From: a virus
Virus record (IMG/VR): IMGVR_UViG_3300020172_002336
Span: 1 to 62,525 of that record
DNA: 62,525 nt
Direction: 5' to 3' (one strand)
Shown: positions 657 through 13,242 of the stretch, piece after piece
Numbering within the stretch: the stretch's first letter is position 1
How the letters are laid out: every line of letters begins with the position of its first letter
Made by a program: the position numbers and the translations under genes
Notes under the pieces: generated by a model
What the model saw: the letters and a program-made list of their open reading frames with translations, nothing else
Told to the model about the DNA's origin: nothing
The model's database searches: none

Positions 657-1112
657 ATGAGTTACACATCCTCGTGGTCGATCCAGTTCGAGGTGTCTGA
701 TCGACACTTCACACTACTCACCAACATGATAGACGCCATAAACGAGGTTGTCGGCGAAGCTACCGACGTTGATGGCGTATTGAAGGCACGCTATCCGACG
801 CTCGACTTAACCATCGAATGGCACACCATACTCTCGTACGAACGTATCGAGCGAGACATATTAATATACAACGACGACTGCGACGGCGGCTCAGACGAAG
901 GCGCCGAGATCGTGCGCGCGTTCTTGCGGCAACACGATCTACCGACGCGTGTCGGTTTTATCTGCGGGTGGACGGACAGGAACGAGGGCGGTGGCGCGGC
1001 TTACCACATCACCAAGCACGGCATCGCGTGGAAGAACCTCTACACCGTGCTCGATGAACTTTTTACAGCCAACGAGATCGACTGGCAAAACAATCCACAG
1101 ATACCTACTTGA
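657..1112 (+). CDS. Hypothetical protein (151 aa)
   Basis: I chose the ATG at 657 because it sits in the recurrent GGGGGTAACGATG start context, 15 nt after the upstream stop. The protein is acidic (DDCDGGSDEGAE) with a hydrophobic/aromatic N-terminal half (SYTSSWSIQFEV) that looks like a beta-rich fold. It is not recognised. It belongs to the block of small genes ahead of the AAA+ ATPase. Confidence 0.7.
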   Translation: MSYTSSWSIQFEVSDRHFTLLTNMIDAINEVVGEATDVDGVLKARYPTLDLTIEWHTILSYERIERDILIYNDDCDGGSDEGAEIVRAFLRQHDLPTRVGFICGWTDRNEGGGAAYHITKHGIAWKNLYTVLDELFTANEIDWQNNPQIPT

Positions 1113-1137
1113 CACCCGCAGGGTAATGGTCTACTAT
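1109..1137 (+). promoter_or_regulatory. Sigma70-type promoter with half-palindrome in spacer
   Basis: TTGACA at 1109-1114 and TACTAT at 1132-1137 are separated by 17 nt. The -35 is preceded by ATACCTAC, an extension shared with promoters at about 9230 and 16090. The spacer holds GGGTAATGG, a half-site of the dispersed palindrome. Transcription would enter the gene at 1166. Confidence 0.65.
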
Positions 1138-1165
1138 CACCAATGATAAATGGGGGAGTACCCTA

Positions 1166-1618
1166 ATGACTAACGCTCTGATCTTGCCGTTTACCTTCGA
1201 GGGTAAGTGGCGCGGGGGGCCGCTGCAGGTTCAGTGGGATCGCATCCCGGTAACCTACGCTGTACGCCACGAACCCACGCGCACGATCTATTTCGGATCC
1301 TCGGGCAACGCCGCGGTCGCGTTCTATAGCTGGTACCAGCGCCTGCGGGGCCTCAACACCCAGCCGCGCCTGAGTCCAGCCCTGCGCGCTGTCTACACCA
1401 AGCGCGACGACTTCATATTCATCGTGCTCAAGACGTGGGAGCGCGGCGAGTTGGCTCATGAGGCGGCACAGTTGGCGCTGGACTACATCAAGAAGCTCCG
1501 CGACATGCGCCCCGACAAGCTGCTCAACATGGACAGCACTGGCAAGGAGCGCGAGTTCTGGCTTGCCTGTACACCACCGGAGAACCTGCCCCCCGTTCAA
1601 CACGGTAAGTATCTATAA
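1166..1618 (+). CDS. Hypothetical protein, possibly a degenerate GIY-YIG-like fold (150 aa)
   Basis: The ATG follows GGGGGAG. The segment TIYFGSSGNAAVAFYSWYQR resembles the second strand and helix of GIY-YIG proteins (Y-x-G-S-S-x-N followed by an Arg-containing helix), and the following DDFIFIVLKTW would be the third strand. The first GIY strand is not obvious, so I would not call it a nuclease. It is the first gene after a strong promoter. An in-frame palindrome (1190-1207) encodes FTFEGK. Confidence 0.65.
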   Translation: MTNALILPFTFEGKWRGGPLQVQWDRIPVTYAVRHEPTRTIYFGSSGNAAVAFYSWYQRLRGLNTQPRLSPALRAVYTKRDDFIFIVLKTWERGELAHEAAQLALDYIKKLRDMRPDKLLNMDSTGKEREFWLACTPPENLPPVQHGKYL

Positions 1619-1631
1619 CGCGATATTGGGC

Positions 1632-1649
1632 GTTACCCGGAGGGGTAAC
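1632..1649. repeat. Palindrome copy in an intergenic gap
   Basis: A perfect 6+6 bp inverted repeat around CGGAGG lies in the 122-bp gap between the genes at 1166 and 1741. The rest of the gap shows no gene. Confidence 0.85.
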
Positions 1650-1740
1650 GGTCAGCAGTTTGTTTCCCCCAACGTAACTGTTGATGGGCGTGTCTGGAAA
1701 ATGGCACGCCCCCCAATCCCTGTTTAAAAGGACCCTAACG

Positions 1741-2136
1741 ATGGCTCTCGCTACTCCGATGTTCACTATGATCGGCCGCACGATTGTTGCGATCGAAGGT
1801 GGTTGTGTTGGTTCTGAGAGAATCATCTTCCGGTGCTCCGCGGGCGAAGTGTTCAGTTTGTCCCATACCCAAGACTGCTGCGAAAGTGTCGAGGTCAACG
1901 AGATCATCGGGGACATTGAAGATCTCATCGGCTCCCCGTTGGTTGAAGCCGAAGAAGTCTCAAATTACGAAGGCCCCGAAGTCGATGCCGAAAGCTACAC
2001 GTGGACGTTCTATAAGTTCGGCACGGCCAAGGGGTTCGTGACGATCCGTTGGCTGGGCCAGAGCAACGGCTACTACAGCGAGAGCGTGTCGTTCGATGTG
2101 GTCAATCTACAGCGCACCCCAATGGCATGGAGATAA
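1741..2136 (+). CDS. DUF7448-like phage protein (131 aa)
   Basis: The start was placed at the ATG after AAAAGGACCCTAACG. The core SLSHTQDCCESVEVNEIIGD followed by IEDLIGSPLVEAEE matches the signature I know from DUF7448, a family common in phages of many hosts: a twin Cys after SQD/TQD, then a GD-DLIGSP motif. Function is unknown. It shares strand and context with the surrounding small genes. Confidence 0.75.
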   Translation: MALATPMFTMIGRTIVAIEGGCVGSERIIFRCSAGEVFSLSHTQDCCESVEVNEIIGDIEDLIGSPLVEAEEVSNYEGPEVDAESYTWTFYKFGTAKGFVTIRWLGQSNGYYSESVSFDVVNLQRTPMAWR

Positions 2137-2138
2137 CT

Positions 2139-2594
2139 ATGGCCGATGTCGCCCTCCTCGAAGTGCTGCTGTCGTTGGCCGATAAACTGGCTGCTGACAG
2201 CGCGCCAGTGGACGGTAATGGGTGGGTCAAGTTCGACGCCGAGGGTAACGTCGTCACCGCTGATCTTGCGTGGTACGCCTGCGACGAGCCAGTGTTCCAA
2301 GCGCTGGGCTTGCGCAAGTACGTGCTGAACCACGCAGCCACCGGCAAGCCCGTGTGGGGCGAGCCGCGCATCGGCCCCAAACAAGGGTGGTGCCCTGTCG
2401 GCACGGGGGCGATGCAGACGCTGTTCAGTCTGACGCGCGACGAGGCCGAGTACATTTTCGGGGCCGACGACATGAAGATTTTGGAACTGGAAGGATGGGA
2501 GACGGTCGAGGGTGGTATATACCCCGACGTCGACTACTCGATCCGCGGAGTTACCGAACGCCTACGCCGGGTGATTGATGGCGGTATCGAGTAA
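2139..2594 (+). CDS. Hypothetical protein (151 aa)
   Basis: The ATG at 2139 has GGAG six bases upstream, formed by the last codons of the previous gene. The N-terminal third is helical; the middle has DLAWYACDEPVFQALGLRKYV and the C-terminal part ends RLRRVIDGGIE. It is not recognised. The TAA stop is the left end of a TAACC-N6-GGTAAT palindrome that supplies the ribosome binding site of the next gene. Confidence 0.7.
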   Translation: MADVALLEVLLSLADKLAADSAPVDGNGWVKFDAEGNVVTADLAWYACDEPVFQALGLRKYVLNHAATGKPVWGEPRIGPKQGWCPVGTGAMQTLFSLTRDEAEYIFGADDMKILELEGWETVEGGIYPDVDYSIRGVTERLRRVIDGGIE

Positions 2595-2608
2595 CCTAGA
2601 GAGGTAAT

Positions 2609-2800
2609 ATGGCAGAGTTTGCACGTATCAAACGGTTCGTCGCGCCGGGGGTGCTGCCCCGTGGCGTCGTTGCCGAGTTCGACAAGGACAAGAACCTGCT
2701 GCGCATTGACGAGCAGTTCTACAATAACGCTTCCAACAAACTTCAACACCAGATCTGGCGCACGGAAGCGTCGCTGGAGATCAAACCCAAGGGGCGGTGA
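2609..2800 (+). CDS. Small hypothetical protein (63 aa)
   Basis: It starts 14 nt after the previous stop within GAGAGGTAATATG. The protein is basic and mixed, with repeated short hydrophobic segments; the centre (GVVAEFDKDKNLLRIDEQFY) could be a beta hairpin. The TGA stop overlaps the next ATG as TGATG. Function unknown. Confidence 0.7.
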   Translation: MAEFARIKRFVAPGVLPRGVVAEFDKDKNLLRIDEQFYNNASNKLQHQIWRTEASLEIKPKGR

Positions 2801-2991
2801 TGGGCGCTCAAAAAACTTGGAACCCTAAAGCACGCTGGCAACCAGAGCGTGAAGGCCCGGTCTGGGAGGCGTTCCTGAAATGGTTCAAAAACACCAACAT
2901 AGAAGCACAGCGCCGCTCAGTTGCGTGGAAAGCGTTCCACGCTTCATGGGTGCTGTTCGGAAAGCAAGTACCCCCTAACCTGCCGGGGTAA
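2800..2991 (+). CDS. Small Trp-rich hypothetical protein (63 aa)
   Basis: The ATG overlaps the upstream stop. Six to seven Trp residues in 63 and many Lys/Arg residues suggest a small helical, perhaps nucleic-acid- or protein-binding, module. The TAA stop is the right arm of a TAACC-N6-GGTAA palindrome. Not recognised. Confidence 0.65.
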   Translation: MGAQKTWNPKARWQPEREGPVWEAFLKWFKNTNIEAQRRSVAWKAFHASWVLFGKQVPPNLPG

Positions 2992-3039
2992 TGGCAGTAA
3001 CCTACACCACACCAAAACATCAAGCTGTGAGAGGCGAAA

Positions 3040-4167
3040 ATGTACCTTAGTCAACTGCGCAAAGAGATCGAGACCTACTTCGACATCGGCCTGACGGTGG
3101 AACTCCAGAGTCCTCCGGGCGTTGGCAAGTCGGATTGGGTCGAGAACCTCGCTGCCGAACTGTCCGAACGTGACGGCTTCGAGTGGGGCTACGGCCGGGC
3201 GTTCCTCGGCACCTACACCCCGATCGACCTGATGGGCTACATGATCCCCGTCAAGCGAAAGGTCGTGGTCGACGGCGTCGAGACCGAGACCATGGTGTCG
3301 GAGTACACGCTCCCGCCGTGGTACTTCTCCGTCGACGGTCGCCCCCTGAACTCCTTCAAGAAGGCGATACTCCTGATGGACGAGTACGGTCAGGGCGAGC
3401 CGGACGTCAAGAAGACCGCTGCTGACCTGCGCCTGCACAAGCGCATCGGGCCGCACCAGTTGGCCGACAGCGTGAACATCATTTGCGCGTCCAACCGCGC
3501 CAAGGATCGCTCGGGCGTCACGAAGTCGTTCGACTTCGAGATCAACCGTGTCGCCTACCTGAACGTCGAGCCGGACTTCGGGTCGTGGGAAGCGTGGGCA
3601 TCGAAGCAGCGCATCGAGCCGATCTTCATTCTGTTCGCGCGCAAGTACCCTAACCTGATCTTCAACGGCGATGTGCCCAAGGATCAGGGACCGTTCTGCA
3701 CGCCGCGCTCGTACGTCGCCGCCATCAAGATGATCCGTGGCCGCGCCGAGATGATGAAGCGGCTCGGCATCACCTCTGCGGGTAACTACGGCTTCGCCGA
3801 CCAGAACGAGGGCGCCATCGTGCAGGAGCAACTCAACGGCATCATCGGTGAGGCTGCCAGCGTGCAGATGGCCGGGTGGATGCGCATGCGGCTGGAGACG
3901 CCCGACTACGCCGACATCGTCCTCAACCCCAAGACGGTCGACATGCCGTCGAAGCCCGACGCCAAGATGCTGGTCTGCTACGAGTGCGCCTACCACGTCA
4001 CGGCGGCTCAGATGGCCCCGGTCATCGAGTTCATCAAGCGCATGCCCCCGGAGTTCCACGTGACGTTCGCCAAGACGGCGGTCAAGCGTGACCACCGGCT
4101 GCTGATCCAGCAGGACATGCACGCTTTTATCAAGAACAATACCGCCTTGCTCAACGCCATCGGATAA
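3040..4167 (+). CDS. MoxR-like AAA+ ATPase (375 aa)
   Basis: Walker A is PPGVGKSD at residues 25-32 and Walker B is ILLMDEYGQG at about 110-119; IICASNRAKD near 150 fits sensor 1. The size and the long insert between Walker A and B fit the MoxR/RavA branch of AAA+ ATPases, which act as chaperone-like remodelling enzymes with a partner carrying a von Willebrand A domain. Such a partner is encoded at 5796. The start follows GAGAGG. Its phage role is unknown; virion maturation or host takeover are guesses. The two homing-type nuclease genes between ATPase and VWA gene look like later insertions into a two-gene unit. Confidence 0.85.
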   Translation: MYLSQLRKEIETYFDIGLTVELQSPPGVGKSDWVENLAAELSERDGFEWGYGRAFLGTYTPIDLMGYMIPVKRKVVVDGVETETMVSEYTLPPWYFSVDGRPLNSFKKAILLMDEYGQGEPDVKKTAADLRLHKRIGPHQLADSVNIICASNRAKDRSGVTKSFDFEINRVAYLNVEPDFGSWEAWASKQRIEPIFILFARKYPNLIFNGDVPKDQGPFCTPRSYVAAIKMIRGRAEMMKRLGITSAGNYGFADQNEGAIVQEQLNGIIGEAASVQMAGWMRMRLETPDYADIVLNPKTVDMPSKPDAKMLVCYECAYHVTAAQMAPVIEFIKRMPPEFHVTFAKTAVKRDHRLLIQQDMHAFIKNNTALLNAIG

Positions 4168-4212
4168 CATACCATGGGCAGTGTTGCCCATTAATATGTA
4201 ACCGAGGTCGTT

Positions 4213-4722
4213 ATGCCCCACATATCCCCTCTTAAACTAGACCTGCACGGGCGCATCGCCTTCATGACTGGAGAACGGTACGGCCCGCTGCAGTGTCTAT
4301 CGTGGCGGGGTGGAACCAAGGGTGACGCGCGGATCAACAACGCGTACCCCACTATCATGTTCAAAGGGCAATCCTACCGCGTTAGTCGAGTGGTGCTGGA
4401 ACGCAAGCTAGGCCGTCCAATGAGACCCGGGACGTTCGCCTGCCATACCTGCGATGACAGCATGTGTATCGCAATGGAGCACCTATACGAGGGCACGCCC
4501 CAACAAAACACCGCCGACATGCGGTCGCGCGGTCGGCACTTCGACAATCGTGGCGAGAAGCACCCTAACGCGAAACTGACTGCTGAGACCGCCGCAGAAA
4601 TTCGACGGTTGCGGGGCGTGGTATCGCATCGAAAACTAGCCGCCCAATTCGGGGTGTCTCCCGGCGCGGTAGCGAGTGTTCTTTACGGCAAAACGTGGCG
4701 AGTAACTAACCCTCAAAGGTAA
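4213..4722 (+). CDS. HNH homing endonuclease with C-terminal helix-turn-helix (169 aa)
   Basis: The central part has the HNH layout of free-standing phage homing enzymes: CHTCDDSMCIAMEHLYEGT followed by QQNTADM and RGR. The tail, GEKHPNAKLTAETAAEIR then SHRKLAAQFGVSPGAVASVL and GKTW, is the helix-turn-helix commonly fused to such HNH domains for target recognition. It would cleave phage DNA lacking the gene and spread by repair. It separates the ATPase from a small gene; its stop lies in a palindrome copy. Confidence 0.85.
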   Translation: MPHISPLKLDLHGRIAFMTGERYGPLQCLSWRGGTKGDARINNAYPTIMFKGQSYRVSRVVLERKLGRPMRPGTFACHTCDDSMCIAMEHLYEGTPQQNTADMRSRGRHFDNRGEKHPNAKLTAETAAEIRRLRGVVSHRKLAAQFGVSPGAVASVLYGKTWRVTNPQR

Positions 4723-9570: not shown

Positions 9571-12500
9571 ATGGCGAGACGATTGATTGGACTCGACTTC
9601 GAGACCCACTACGACAGCAAGTTCTACACGCTGCGCAAGATGGACATTCCGTCATACATCTGCGACCCGCGTTTCGAAGCTACGCTCGTTGCCGTCAAGG
9701 AGGGCCACAATCCGGCGTTCATTGTCGACGGACCGGACATCCCCCGTTACCTGCAGGGGTTAGGCGATCCGAAGGACATTACCCTCTACGGGCACAATCT
9801 GATGTTCGACGCTTGCATCGCGTCGTGGATCTACGGCTGGCGTGCTGGGCTTAACATCTGCACGCTGGCGCTGGCCCGCCAAACGATCCAAGCCTACTGC
9901 AGGTCGTTGTCGTTGAAGTCCGTACTTGAGTATCTTCGCCTGCCAGCCAAGGGCGGGTTCCTGTCCATGGTGGATGGGATGCGCCGCGACGACATCATCG
10001 CTGCCGGGTTCTGGCAACAGTACTGTGAGTACGCGGTGGGCGACATCGACGGCGCGTACGGCATCTACCAGCAGCTAGCACCTCTGGTGCCGCCCGAGGA
10101 GCACGTCATCGCTGACATGGTGCTGCGCATGGCGACCGAACCGTCGTTCGATCTGGACCAGCCTCTGCTGCAGGCACATCTGGACGACGTCATCGAGAAG
10201 AAAGAGGAGATGCTGGCGTTCGCCATGATCGGCGGCTCGCTCCGCGGCAAGGAAGACCTCATGTCGAACGACAAGTTCGCTTTGGTCCTCCAGTCGCTGG
10301 GTGTCGACCCTCCCACCAAGATGTCGCCTGTCACCGGCAGGCAGGCGTGGGCGTTCGCCAAGTCCGACGAGGGTATGAAGGAGCTACAGGAGCATCCGGA
10401 CCCCGTTGTGCAGGCAGTTGTCGCGGCTCGGCTGGGGCACAAGACCACGCTGGAAGAAACCCGCACGGCTCGGTTTCTGAATTGCAGTACCCTAACGTTC
10501 CCGGCCTATGGCGTGGGTAAGTTCCCCGTACCCTTGAAGGTAAGCGGGGCGCATACTCATCGGTTGTGTCTGGTGGGTGAAACAATTATTTGCACTTTGC
10601 GGGATAACCGTGTAGTGTACGATCGTCTTGACTGCCTACGCGCTACTGATCTGGTGTGGGATGGCGAGGCGTTCGTGGCCCACGGGGGACTAGCCTATGC
10701 CGGACGAAAGCGAGTTATCACTCACGACGGTGTCACAGGGACGCCCGACCACCGGGTCTTTACCGGGAAAGGGCAACTCGCGCTGGCACTTGCAAAGGCG
10801 CAAGGCGAGGACATTACTCGTGGAGGAGTTCCTGATCCGGCACGGGTCGAAACGACTGTGCACAGGGGAGATCACGTATCATTCCAGAGTGGAATTCCAC
10901 TGCAGCAAGTGCGGGGCCGTTTGTCGGGCCATGTGGAAGGATCTAACGAACCGAGACCGGGTGTTGTGCAAGTCGTGCGCGATTACCGCGCGCATGGCGG
11001 GCGTGAAGCCCTCCACCAAGATGTTAGCCGCTTCGGCCAGACAGAACGTAGACGAAGCTGCCAAGGCGAGAGCGCGGCGGGTAGTGTTACCCTTGCAGGC
11101 AAGCCAGCCGCTGACACGGGAAACGACACGTTCGCAGGCGCGTCGTTTGTCGGTGAGTTGGAGCCCTTCGGATTGGAAGACCGCCTTGACGACGGCTACT
11201 CGTGTGTTCCAGCGATGCACCAACCCCCGCATATCGAGCTACCCGTACTACGGCGGCAGGGGGATCGAAGTCTGGTTTGCCTCGCCAGCGTTGATGGCGG
11301 ACTGGTTGCTGAAAAACTTAGGACCACGACCGCTGGGCCAGTCGCTCGATCGGATCATGTCCAACGGACATTACGAGCCGGGGAACTTACGTTGGGCGAC
11401 GAAGGAAGTGCAGATGAAAAACCGCAATTCATGGAAACATGGGACATAATCGACTGCGGACCTCGCAACCGCTTCATGGCTAATGGCCGCCTTGTTCATA
11501 ATAGCGGTGACTGGAAATATAACGCGCAGAACATGCGCCGCGGCGGCAAACTTCGTAAGTCTCTCAAGGCACCACCCGGCCACACGGTCGTGGTCGGCGA
11601 CGAAAAACAAATCGAAGCGCGCATGGCCGCCGAGTTCAGCGGGCAGGCCGACCTCGTCGAGCAGTTCCGACTGGGCGTGGACACCTACGCCGCGATGGCG
11701 ACCAAGATCTTCGGGTTCGTTGTCGATCGTAAGGTTCACGTGCCGCAGGGGTTCGTCGGTAAGACATGTCTCGGCGCTGACACTCTGGTGTTGACAGATA
11801 GTGGATGGAAGCCTATCCCATACATCTTGGCTTCCGACAAAGTATGGGACGGTATGGCGTGGGTGACGCATCAGGGATTGATCTACCAAGGGGTGAAGCC
11901 GGTACTGACGAAGTACGGCGTGACGGCAACTTCGGACCACGAGATCAGTTTGGGAAGTTCGTGGCTGGAGTGGAGCGCGGTATGCGCGGACCGCCGCCTT
12001 TTCCAGTCGGCAGTCGCGTCGGTTCGTTTACCGTGCTCGGCTACGTCAACCACAAACAAGGCTGGCACCCAATCTGCCAATGCGAGTGTGGGCGAGCGGG
12101 CCGCGTCGACCGGCACAACCTCAAAAGCGGCAAGTCAACTCGGTGCCGTAAATGTTTGGGCGCGAGGCACTCTAAGAACTTTGCACTGTACCGCGACATC
12201 CTGCCTGACGATGCTCACAGACGCCGTCTCGCCAACCGCATCAGGGCCTGCATTGACAGGTGCCACAACCCAAAGAACCGGGTTTACCGCGGCTACGGCG
12301 GGCGAGGCATACACGTCCACGAAGCATGGCGTACTAACATCGGCACGTTCTTGGCCTACGTGCAGTCGTGCGCGGGCTGGGATGACCCGGCTCTCCACAT
12401 GGATCGAACAGATAACGAGAAAGGTTACGAACCGGGCAACATTAGGTTCGTTACCATCACAGGAAACAACCAAAACCGAAGGGAGGTTTGGAAGCTGCAG

Positions 12501-13242
12501 CTTCGCATCGACGAACTTGAAGCCCGTCTACGACATTGCAAATGCGGGGCCGAGACATCGGTTCACGATCCTGACTGATGAAGGGCCGCTGGTTGTCAGC
12601 AACTGCGTGCTCTCGGGCATGTACGGTGTTGGGCCGCCGAAGTTTCGTAGCTCGGTTATTCATCTGTCCAAAGAACAGACCGGCACGAGGATCGACGTCG
12701 ACGTTGATCTGGGGCCGACCGTTACCTCGGAGACCATCATTGAAGCCTACCGTCGTGAGACGTGGGCGATCACTGAGATGCGGAAGCGGCTGAACAACTG
12801 CATCCCGCTGATGGCCCAGCCCGATTGTAACTTCTTCGTCGGGGCAGTGCAGTTCCTCTACCAGAAGATCAAGCTACCAAACGGCCATTACCTCTACTAC
12901 AATAAGCTACGTTTCGACGACACGTCAGGCAGTTGGATCTACGAGTACGCCGGACGCTGGAAACGCATCTACGGCGGTGCTCTTTTGGAGAACATCATTC
13001 AGGCGCTCGCGCGTATCGTGACCATGCACGCGGCGCTGCGCCTGCGCCCCGATCTGAGTAAGTACAACTGGAAGCTGGCACTGCAGGCGCACGATGAACT
13101 CGTCTTGATAGTTCCGAACGACCACGTGGACTGCGCCAAACAACGCCTCAAGGAAGAACTTACCCGGCAGGTAACATGGATGCCCAACCTGCCGGTCGAT
13201 GCTGATATTGGATCAGGCCCCACATACGGAGATGCGAAATGA
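9571..13242 (+). CDS. Family A DNA polymerase with 3'-5' exonuclease, interrupted by two inteins (1223 aa precursor)
   Basis: The precursor contains a DnaQ-type exonuclease domain (DFETH at residues 9-13, GHNLMFDACI near 77, YAVGDIDGAY near 155) and a polymerase domain: SGAHTHRL/SGDWK region, motif A VVVGDEKQIEAR at about 673-684, motif B in the GKT/CVLSGMYGVG region, and motif C AHDELV at 1173-1178. Intein 1 is residues 333-644 and intein 2 residues 733-1011; removal leaves 632 aa, a usual length for phage Pol A with exonuclease. The second intein splits the O-helix (motif B), so activity should require splicing. Start follows GGAAGG. The stop overlaps the next ATG. Confidence 0.92.
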   Translation: MARRLIGLDFETHYDSKFYTLRKMDIPSYICDPRFEATLVAVKEGHNPAFIVDGPDIPRYLQGLGDPKDITLYGHNLMFDACIASWIYGWRAGLNICTLALARQTIQAYCRSLSLKSVLEYLRLPAKGGFLSMVDGMRRDDIIAAGFWQQYCEYAVGDIDGAYGIYQQLAPLVPPEEHVIADMVLRMATEPSFDLDQPLLQAHLDDVIEKKEEMLAFAMIGGSLRGKEDLMSNDKFALVLQSLGVDPPTKMSPVTGRQAWAFAKSDEGMKELQEHPDPVVQAVVAARLGHKTTLEETRTARFLNCSTLTFPAYGVGKFPVPLKVSGAHTHRLCLVGETIICTLRDNRVVYDRLDCLRATDLVWDGEAFVAHGGLAYAGRKRVITHDGVTGTPDHRVFTGKGQLALALAKAQGEDITRGGVPDPARVETTVHRGDHVSFQSGIPLQQVRGRLSGHVEGSNEPRPGVVQVVRDYRAHGGREALHQDVSRFGQTERRRSCQGESAAGSVTLAGKPAADTGNDTFAGASFVGELEPFGLEDRLDDGYSCVPAMHQPPHIELPVLRRQGDRSLVCLASVDGGLVAEKLRTTTAGPVARSDHVQRTLRAGELTLGDEGSADEKPQFMETWDIIDCGPRNRFMANGRLVHNSGDWKYNAQNMRRGGKLRKSLKAPPGHTVVVGDEKQIEARMAAEFSGQADLVEQFRLGVDTYAAMATKIFGFVVDRKVHVPQGFVGKTCLGADTLVLTDSGWKPIPYILASDKVWDGMAWVTHQGLIYQGVKPVLTKYGVTATSDHEISLGSSWLEWSAVCADRRLFQSAVASVRLPCSATSTTNKAGTQSANASVGERAASTGTTSKAASQLGAVNVWARGTLRTLHCTATSCLTMLTDAVSPTASGPALTGATTQRTGFTAATAGEAYTSTKHGVLTSARSWPTCSRARAGMTRLSTWIEQITRKVTNRATLGSLPSQETTKTEGRFGSCSFASTNLKPVYDIANAGPRHRFTILTDEGPLVVSNCVLSGMYGVGPPKFRSSVIHLSKEQTGTRIDVDVDLGPTVTSETIIEAYRRETWAITEMRKRLNNCIPLMAQPDCNFFVGAVQFLYQKIKLPNGHYLYYNKLRFDDTSGSWIYEYAGRWKRIYGGALLENIIQALARIVTMHAALRLRPDLSKYNWKLALQAHDELVLIVPNDHVDCAKQRLKEELTRQVTWMPNLPVDADIGSGPTYGDAK
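10567..11502 (+). mobile_element. Intein 1 of the DNA polymerase (312 aa)
   Basis: It starts at Cys333 (CLVGETIICTLRD, block A), has block B as GVTGTPDHRVFT, and ends with block F WDIIDCGPRNRFMANG and block G RLVHN, followed by Ser as the first C-extein residue. The nucleophiles Cys1, His-Asn at the C-end and Ser+1 are all present, so splicing looks competent. Between blocks B and F about 665 nt remain open in the intein frame but give a featureless sequence without any in-frame endonuclease motif; an HNH endonuclease is encoded there in another frame. Confidence 0.88.
10697..11449 (+). CDS. HNH homing endonuclease nested out of frame inside intein 1 (up to 250 aa)
   Basis: This frame is +1 relative to the polymerase. 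It encodes a zinc ribbon (HCSKCG and LCKSC) and the HNH homing core of the type RCTNP, YYGGRGIEV, LDRIMSNGHYEPGNLRWATK, ending KNRN. The ATG at 10697 has GGGGGA eight bases upstream but would overlap block B; a GTG at 10820 after GCGAGG gives a shorter protein that starts beyond block B. It ends 53 nt before the intein end, inside block F. The likely role is cutting intein-less polymerase genes, doing in trans-frame what an in-frame intein endonuclease does. Confidence 0.85.
   Translation: MPDESELSLTTVSQGRPTTGSLPGKGNSRWHLQRRKARTLLVEEFLIRHGSKRLCTGEITYHSRVEFHCSKCGAVCRAMWKDLTNRDRVLCKSCAITARMAGVKPSTKMLAASARQNVDEAAKARARRVVLPLQASQPLTRETTRSQARRLSVSWSPSDWKTALTTATRVFQRCTNPRISSYPYYGGRGIEVWFASPALMADWLLKNLGPRPLGQSLDRIMSNGHYEPGNLRWATKEVQMKNRNSWKHGT
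11767..12603 (+). mobile_element. Intein 2 of the DNA polymerase (279 aa)
   Basis: It starts at Cys733 (CLGADTLVLTDSGWKPI, block A), has block B as GVTATSDHEIS, block F as VYDIANAGPRHRFTI and ends PLVVSN with Cys as +1 residue. The residue before the terminal Asn is Ser, not the usual His, so splicing may rely on other residues. The insertion point is within motif B of the polymerase. About 550 nt between blocks B and F are open in the intein frame but carry no endonuclease motif (Thr/Ala/Ser-rich); an HNH gene is read there in a different frame. Confidence 0.87.
11982..12578 (+). CDS. HNH homing endonuclease nested out of frame inside intein 2 (198 aa)
   Basis: This frame is +2 relative to the polymerase. 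The ATG at 11982 has GGAG six bases upstream and yields the typical N-terminus of phage HNH enzymes (PVGSRVGSFTVLGYV), followed by CQCECG and CRKC, then RCHNP, YGGRGIHV, LHMDRTDNEKGYEPGNIRFV and NQNRR. The open frame extends back to 11805 but without a good site. It starts just after block B and its last 20 or so codons are also read as intein block F, so that stretch is truly dual-coding. It ends 25 nt before the intein end. Confidence 0.88.
   Translation: MRGPPPFPVGSRVGSFTVLGYVNHKQGWHPICQCECGRAGRVDRHNLKSGKSTRCRKCLGARHSKNFALYRDILPDDAHRRRLANRIRACIDRCHNPKNRVYRGYGGRGIHVHEAWRTNIGTFLAYVQSCAGWDDPALHMDRTDNEKGYEPGNIRFVTITGNNQNRREVWKLQLRIDELEARLRHCKCGAETSVHDPD

Follow-up and report, generated by a model that had tools for sequence, protein, structure and literature searches.

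Can a phage DNA polymerase gene really keep its reading frame open through an intein that also encodes an HNH endonuclease in another frame, and if so, what kind of element is this? The question is raised by a 62,525-nucleotide viral sequence (IMG/VR record IMGVR_UViG_3300020172_002336, positions 1 to 62,525), hereafter called the window. The window features described below lie on its plus strand. The gene at 9571..13242 encodes a 1223-aa family A DNA polymerase (PolA; Pfam DNA_pol_A, 2e-15; PHROG 17, 8e-47) containing two inteins, and its reading frame is uninterrupted by stops across both. An earlier sequence-only reading of the window had claimed that the second intein carries an independently nested, out-of-frame HNH gene. 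Our analysis confirmed this arrangement: the intein frame is open, and a +2 open reading frame (ORF) within it matches PHROG 374 (2.5e-32).

Anatomy of intein 2 and its nested HNH gene

Intein 2 (11767..12603, 279 aa) is inserted in the O-helix motif of PolA, at GFVGKT^C...SN^CVLSGMYG. It contains a position 1 nucleophile (C1), a block B-like TATSDH (T55..H58), block F VYDIANAGPRHRF (12526-12564), the terminal N279 and a +1 Cys, and these motif residues are invariant or almost so in an alignment of 41 relatives. The final Asn is preceded by Ser in place of the usual His (12598-12603), a substitution shared, among the inteins seen, with locus L038 only, which may affect Asn cyclisation. Pfam gave no match for the Hint domain of the window copy, and in a profile search the intein 2 profile matched the Mtu RecA intein (2e-4). 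An AF2 model built with the 41 inteins contained a confident Hint domain (pLDDT ~97) composed of residues 1-92 (11767..12042) and 250-279 (12514..12603, including block F and SN|C), with disorder in between. The top Foldseek matches of this model were the inteins gp41-1, DnaX, DnaB and NpuDnaE, at E-values of ~0.01 because the Hint domain is split by the loop.

The nested HNH gene (11982..12578, 198 aa) lies in the +2 frame relative to PolA, between block B and block F. Its ORF runs from stop to stop over 11802-12575, with an ATG at 11982, a GGAG six bases 5' of it (11972-11975) and a stop codon at 12576-12578, 8 codons short of the end of intein 2. The ORF extends beyond block F, so block F lies entirely within the overlap. 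The window copy has the conserved HNH residues D141 R142, N153 and N162 and the zinc-finger Cys residues, all invariant in the alignment, and a profile comparison with the class II/D3 HNH alignment gave a 99.6% match. The PHROG 374 match and the motif residues place the protein in the HNH endonuclease family by sequence. Pfam and NCBIfam recognised neither of the two nested HNH proteins of the window, and single-protein scans with P0002 and P0005 gave no usable relatives, so that alignments were required. The AF2 model of the HNH frame was ordered (pLDDT 89.6). Its matches in the PDB were weak, with PacI (3ldy) at Z 5.3 over 86 residues standing among unrelated rows; for this model, VIA-align failed to set HNH folds apart from unrelated rows, and searching PDB sequences with the HNH profile yielded chance zinc-finger matches only. 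The HNH assignment is therefore based on sequence families.

The +2 nesting is conserved in relatives

Using the intein frame as a tblastn query, we retrieved 190 phage records, mostly polymerases of Salmonella Jerseyvirus. As a tblastn query, the HNH frame hit these genes as well, at a point 233 bases inside the intein, and where the offset was checked it was again +2. Scanning viral contigs with a profile provided 307 relatives of this HNH (class I hereafter), and the frame of nesting was examined in the best 80 of them: the HNH was within the open PolA frame and always at +2 (80/80), while the third frame contained 4-23 stops. The +2 nesting was also present in 8 prophage/MAG loci and in the inspected PolA inteins of Jerseyvirus, Kagunavirus and Dhillonvirus. 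In the relatives, the boundaries with their splicing motifs fall at three adjacent O-helix positions (GKT^C, GKVA^C, and GK...ELA^C or GKTTILG^C). An HNH in frame with the intein, which the sequence-only reading had named as counter-evidence, was found in none of the homologues, comprising the best 80 of the 307 viral-contig relatives and the nested relatives of other classes. Separately, a Bacteroidota assembly contains a Taishania pollutisoli contig (L196) with sequence near-identical to Jerseyvirus SETP3, which is probably phage contamination and not a prophage.

It is next to impossible that sequencing or assembly frameshifts displaced an HNH that is truly in frame, as in ordinary large inteins: the HNH does lie between blocks B and F, the usual place of in-frame endonuclease domains, but the Hint motifs on either side of it share one frame, and two matched indels, always giving one frame, would be required in each of the best 80 of the 307 viral contigs and in isolates from many laboratories, so that, judged on these sequences, the relatives already refute this explanation. 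The earlier view that an assembly error is unlikely is supported. The overlap recurs in hundreds of phages, and we therefore take it to be a genuine type of mobile element that has evolved repeatedly.

It is very improbable that the insertion is an RNA intron that splices itself and carries an HNH gene. The corresponding insertion of Sodalis phage SO-1 (gp38/gp39) is annotated in GenBank in this way, as a group I intron, but neither the window nor any of the loci of SO-1, SETP3, APSE-1, Javan255 and Gardnerella contained an Rfam intron reaching the gathering score, and no stop interrupts the polymerase frame, which has intein motifs and a Hint fold. A group I intron was accordingly rejected for intein 2 on the Rfam result. 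In the SO-1 locus itself (L010), the frame is open, intein motifs are present and no Rfam intron was detected, and the self-splicing intron annotation is therefore likely a misannotation.

Both frames are under selection, and chance does not explain the overlap

Substitutions were scored as synonymous or not in each frame over 22 independent close pairs. Purifying selection acts on the HNH frame, and the intein frame is near neutral beneath the HNH core save for the avoidance of stops: in the core, the HNH frame scored 0.21 (0.17-0.24) and the intein frame 0.77 (0.68-0.85), and HNH-silent changes that create intein stops were suppressed (0.089 vs 0.473). The latter agrees with the earlier proposal that an HNH gene is tolerated only if the intein frame stays open. 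Clear constraint on the intein frame only was found in the N-terminal Hint part (0.34-0.35) and in the C-terminal Hint part past the HNH stop (0.14). At the two junctions, where the sequence-only reading had called for a check of frame conservation, both frames are constrained. The left junction (11961..12008, ~18 codons), which combines the Hint residues past W66 with the HNH N-terminus, scored 0.41 and 0.57, and the right junction (12492..12578, left edge approximate), where the HNH C-terminal tail runs over block F, scored 0.38 and 0.41. Both junctions are true dual coding, including the last HNH codons over block F for which this had been claimed. The two-frame pattern was seen again in two further HNH classes (II and III, described below), from fewer and more distant pairs.

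To what extent the intein frame might be open by chance was scored by permuting the HNH codons synonymously. It was open in 0.11 of permutations for intein 2 and 0.0037 (0.4%) for intein 1, in 2% and 0.04%, respectively, with the gene's codon usage, and in <0.00005 for Streptococcus Javan255, in which 15 stops are expected. Being open in 11% of shuffles, intein 2 is weak evidence by itself; it is the conserved nesting in relatives that makes chance untenable. The earlier dismissal of chance therefore stands through the relatives and not on the window intein alone. The same 11%, together with the known decayed copies in L063 and Javan422, could be taken to mean that the nested HNH is a decayed relic and that sequence composition accounts for the openness of the +2 frame. 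This is improbable, as purifying selection on the HNH frame is class-wide (0.21) and the window copy keeps the conserved zinc-finger and HNH residues.

The HNH is probably translated from an internal start

How the HNH is produced is the least secure part of this account. The ATG at 11982 with its GGAG, put forward by the sequence-only reading as the HNH start, exists and is a plausible candidate, but it is not conserved in relatives, which point to an NTG formed by a Trp codon (TGG), either W66 (GTG 11961 in the window) or W32 (GTG 11859 in the window). Class I members never have a C immediately before W32 (0/61, 9.0 expected) and rarely have one before W66 (5/61, 22.7 expected), and an extein control showed little bias (275 vs 297.5). 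This avoidance of C indicates that an NTG is retained in the HNH frame. However, some depletion is seen at W66 and W27 in classes II and III too. Selection on the HNH frame is clear only past W66, which favours an internal start from W66 to ATG 11982; we give this interval moderate preference, with W32 as the alternative. Selected ribosome-site strength at W32 was considered and rejected, because the strength is forced by the amino acids WDGEEW, and no selection on ribosome-site strength was found at the HNH start.

Alternatively, ribosomes translating the polymerase could undergo programmed frameshifting and produce the HNH as a fusion. This would fit two observations: most class I members have an open HNH frame over ~50 codons upstream of the core, and no single start codon is conserved. 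However, slippery heptamers occur in only 16/58 members and their place is not conserved, a -1 shift would be needed in class I and a +1 shift in classes II and III, and class II frames open immediately upstream of a start codon that has a good ribosome-binding site. We therefore consider frameshifting unlikely, and internal initiation is retained as the explanation of HNH synthesis.

Relatives of intein 2 show the marks of homing

At the class III site, three states were found: a mini-intein without HNH in Ruminococcus phages, a full nested HNH in Javan255 and Gardnerella, and a partly deleted HNH within an intact intein in Javan422. L063 has a premature HNH stop and an open intein frame. Within the SETP3 group, the intein is present in 165/363 records having the polymerase N-part (~45% occupancy), and the empty polymerase alleles retain RQIGKACELGLGYEGG. 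Examples of polA lacking the intein are those of ER14 and Kenya-K14. Between SETP3 and Kagunavirus, the inteins are 97-98% identical and the N-exteins 77%, with identity dropping on both sides away from the intein; the Dhillonvirus comparison gave 83% vs 65-66%. Such identity peaks centred on the intein are the pattern expected from homing with co-conversion, in data that come from relatives and not from the window phage. It is likewise in the relatives, and not in the window phage, that empty and occupied alleles and inter-genus transfer with flanking co-conversion were found. Together, the HNH-less mini-inteins, the decayed HNHs, the empty polymerases and the intein-centred inter-genus peaks support homing, presumably through cleavage by the HNH.

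The nested arrangement arose more than once

Two more HNH classes occur in PolA inteins, both in the +1 frame. Class II comprises APSE-1, Caulobacter RW, Shewanella SFCi1 and 15 viral contigs, mostly at the site ...YGGK^...HN^CENI.QA, with L125, L127 and L128 elsewhere. Class III comprises Streptococcus Javan255, a Gardnerella phage and Firmicute and other prophages, at the site ELA^CGYGG. The class II scan also returned ~65 free-standing homologues, which are a natural control for the nested genes: they have stops in the other frames, the exceptions being one open in +1 and one open in +2, over the gene alone. In the HNH tree, classes I, II and III are each strongly supported as a single clade. 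Class I is sister to class III although their frames differ, and class II lies among free-standing genes. This topology argues for at least two captures, and for three or more provided that a frame change is taken to require a new insertion. From the branching of class II among free-standing homologues, a free-standing HNH gene likely entered a mini-intein in that class.

Intein 1 of the window (10567..11502, 312 aa) occupies another PolA site, HTHRL^C...HN^SGDWKYN. Its nested HNH gene (10697..11449; PHROG 374, 1.8e-19) is in the +1 frame, so the claim that one gene holds two inteins with HNH genes in two different frames proved correct. No similarity is seen between the two inteins at the DNA level, and their HNHs share 33% identity over 81 aa, so neither intein is a recent copy of the other. 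The differences in site, frame and sequence suggest a separate origin of intein 1, whose HNH is a long branch without placement in the tree. The sequence-only reading had further proposed a repeated route, in which free-standing HNH genes insert into mini-inteins. This proposal is supported in part. The three HNH classes with their frames of +2, +1 and +1 speak for repeated origin, whereas the HNH of intein 2 is neither a recent insertion nor one peculiar to this phage: it belongs to a composite element of long standing, which is transferred as a whole.

Three further loci were noted. In L007, a free-standing-type HNH (2884-3381), branching with L006, is out of frame in a long non-polymerase ORF (726-4559, 1278 aa) and may be a nested gene without an intein, like the ShiLan element discussed below. 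Staphylococcus phage records H190-H193 have an HNH-like match beneath a gene annotated as dUTPase, which could be a further nested or fused case. Moraxella phage Mcat20 (L022, 2731-3663) encodes a 310-aa protein in which a start resembling ThyX appears to be fused to a PolA-like motif and to a mini-intein relative of window intein 1, possibly a gene remnant or chimera.

Discussion

We observed the anatomy of the element in the window, and its conserved frame, selection in two frames, mosaic presence and inter-genus transfer in relatives. Intein 2 is very likely a selfish element of two parts, a splicing intein and, enclosed by it, a separately translated +2 HNH homing endonuclease. In the PolA frame, the two intein ends would fold as one Hint domain, excise and restore PolA, and the ~150 residues between the Hint halves would form a disordered loop with almost no sequence demand beyond the absence of stops. 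In the +2 frame, the HNH would be translated separately from a start within the polymerase message and would cut intein-free polA alleles at the insertion site, and repair of the cut polA would copy intein and HNH into the empty allele. By this division of labour, the intein would render insertion in an essential gene harmless and the HNH would drive its spread, the whole having presumably originated by capture of a free-standing HNH gene. More broadly, intein 2 likely represents a widespread, unrecognised intein type, in which the HNH is overprinted in another frame and translated separately, with a stop-free disordered loop beneath it, and which arose independently in phage PolA at least twice and probably at least three times.

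Nested HNH endonucleases of this kind are missed by phage annotation, and PolA inteins described with splicing domains only may still be mobile. The arrangement also offers a system of overlapping genes that nature has replicated, in which free-standing homologues and HNH-less inteins serve as internal controls, and it is present in well-known, laboratory-testable Salmonella phages. Among open-access papers, we found no description of an intein with its endonuclease in another frame and no literature on overprinting with inteins.

The ShiLan element of an actinobacteriophage methylase is an out-of-frame HNH without a splicing domain (PMC11855218, 2025). It resembles intein 2 in having a zinc-finger HNH that overlaps an open host gene out of frame and a disjunct distribution, but its start has no ribosome site and the host protein retains the insert, whereas the window HNH is enclosed by a full intein. 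A ShiLan-type element was rejected for intein 2, whose HNH is out of frame yet accompanied by a Hint domain. In GenBank, the arrangement of intein 2 is partly annotated in APSE-1 (P46 nested in P45), SO-1 (gp39 in gp38) and vB_SenS-Ent1 (gp37 intein, with splicing domains only), as a nested HNH, a nested ORF or an intein, but none of these records names the intein and its out-of-frame HNH together. Large inteins with an in-frame endonuclease likewise combine a Hint domain with an endonuclease between blocks B and F and with homing. In contrast to intein 2, where the HNH is predicted to be a separate protein, their intein and endonuclease form one polypeptide; this type was rejected, because the HNH is at +2 in intein 2 and none of the nested relatives has it in frame. 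Group I introns with homing endonuclease genes (I-HmuI type) pair a self-removing element with a separately translated HNH gene. There, removal takes place at the RNA level, whereas intein 2 is predicted to be removed at the protein level, which forces the host frame to stay open. Intein 2 and its relatives would represent a second way for an intein to carry an endonuclease, one that parallels the design of intron plus endonuclease gene and adds to it a strict open-frame rule.
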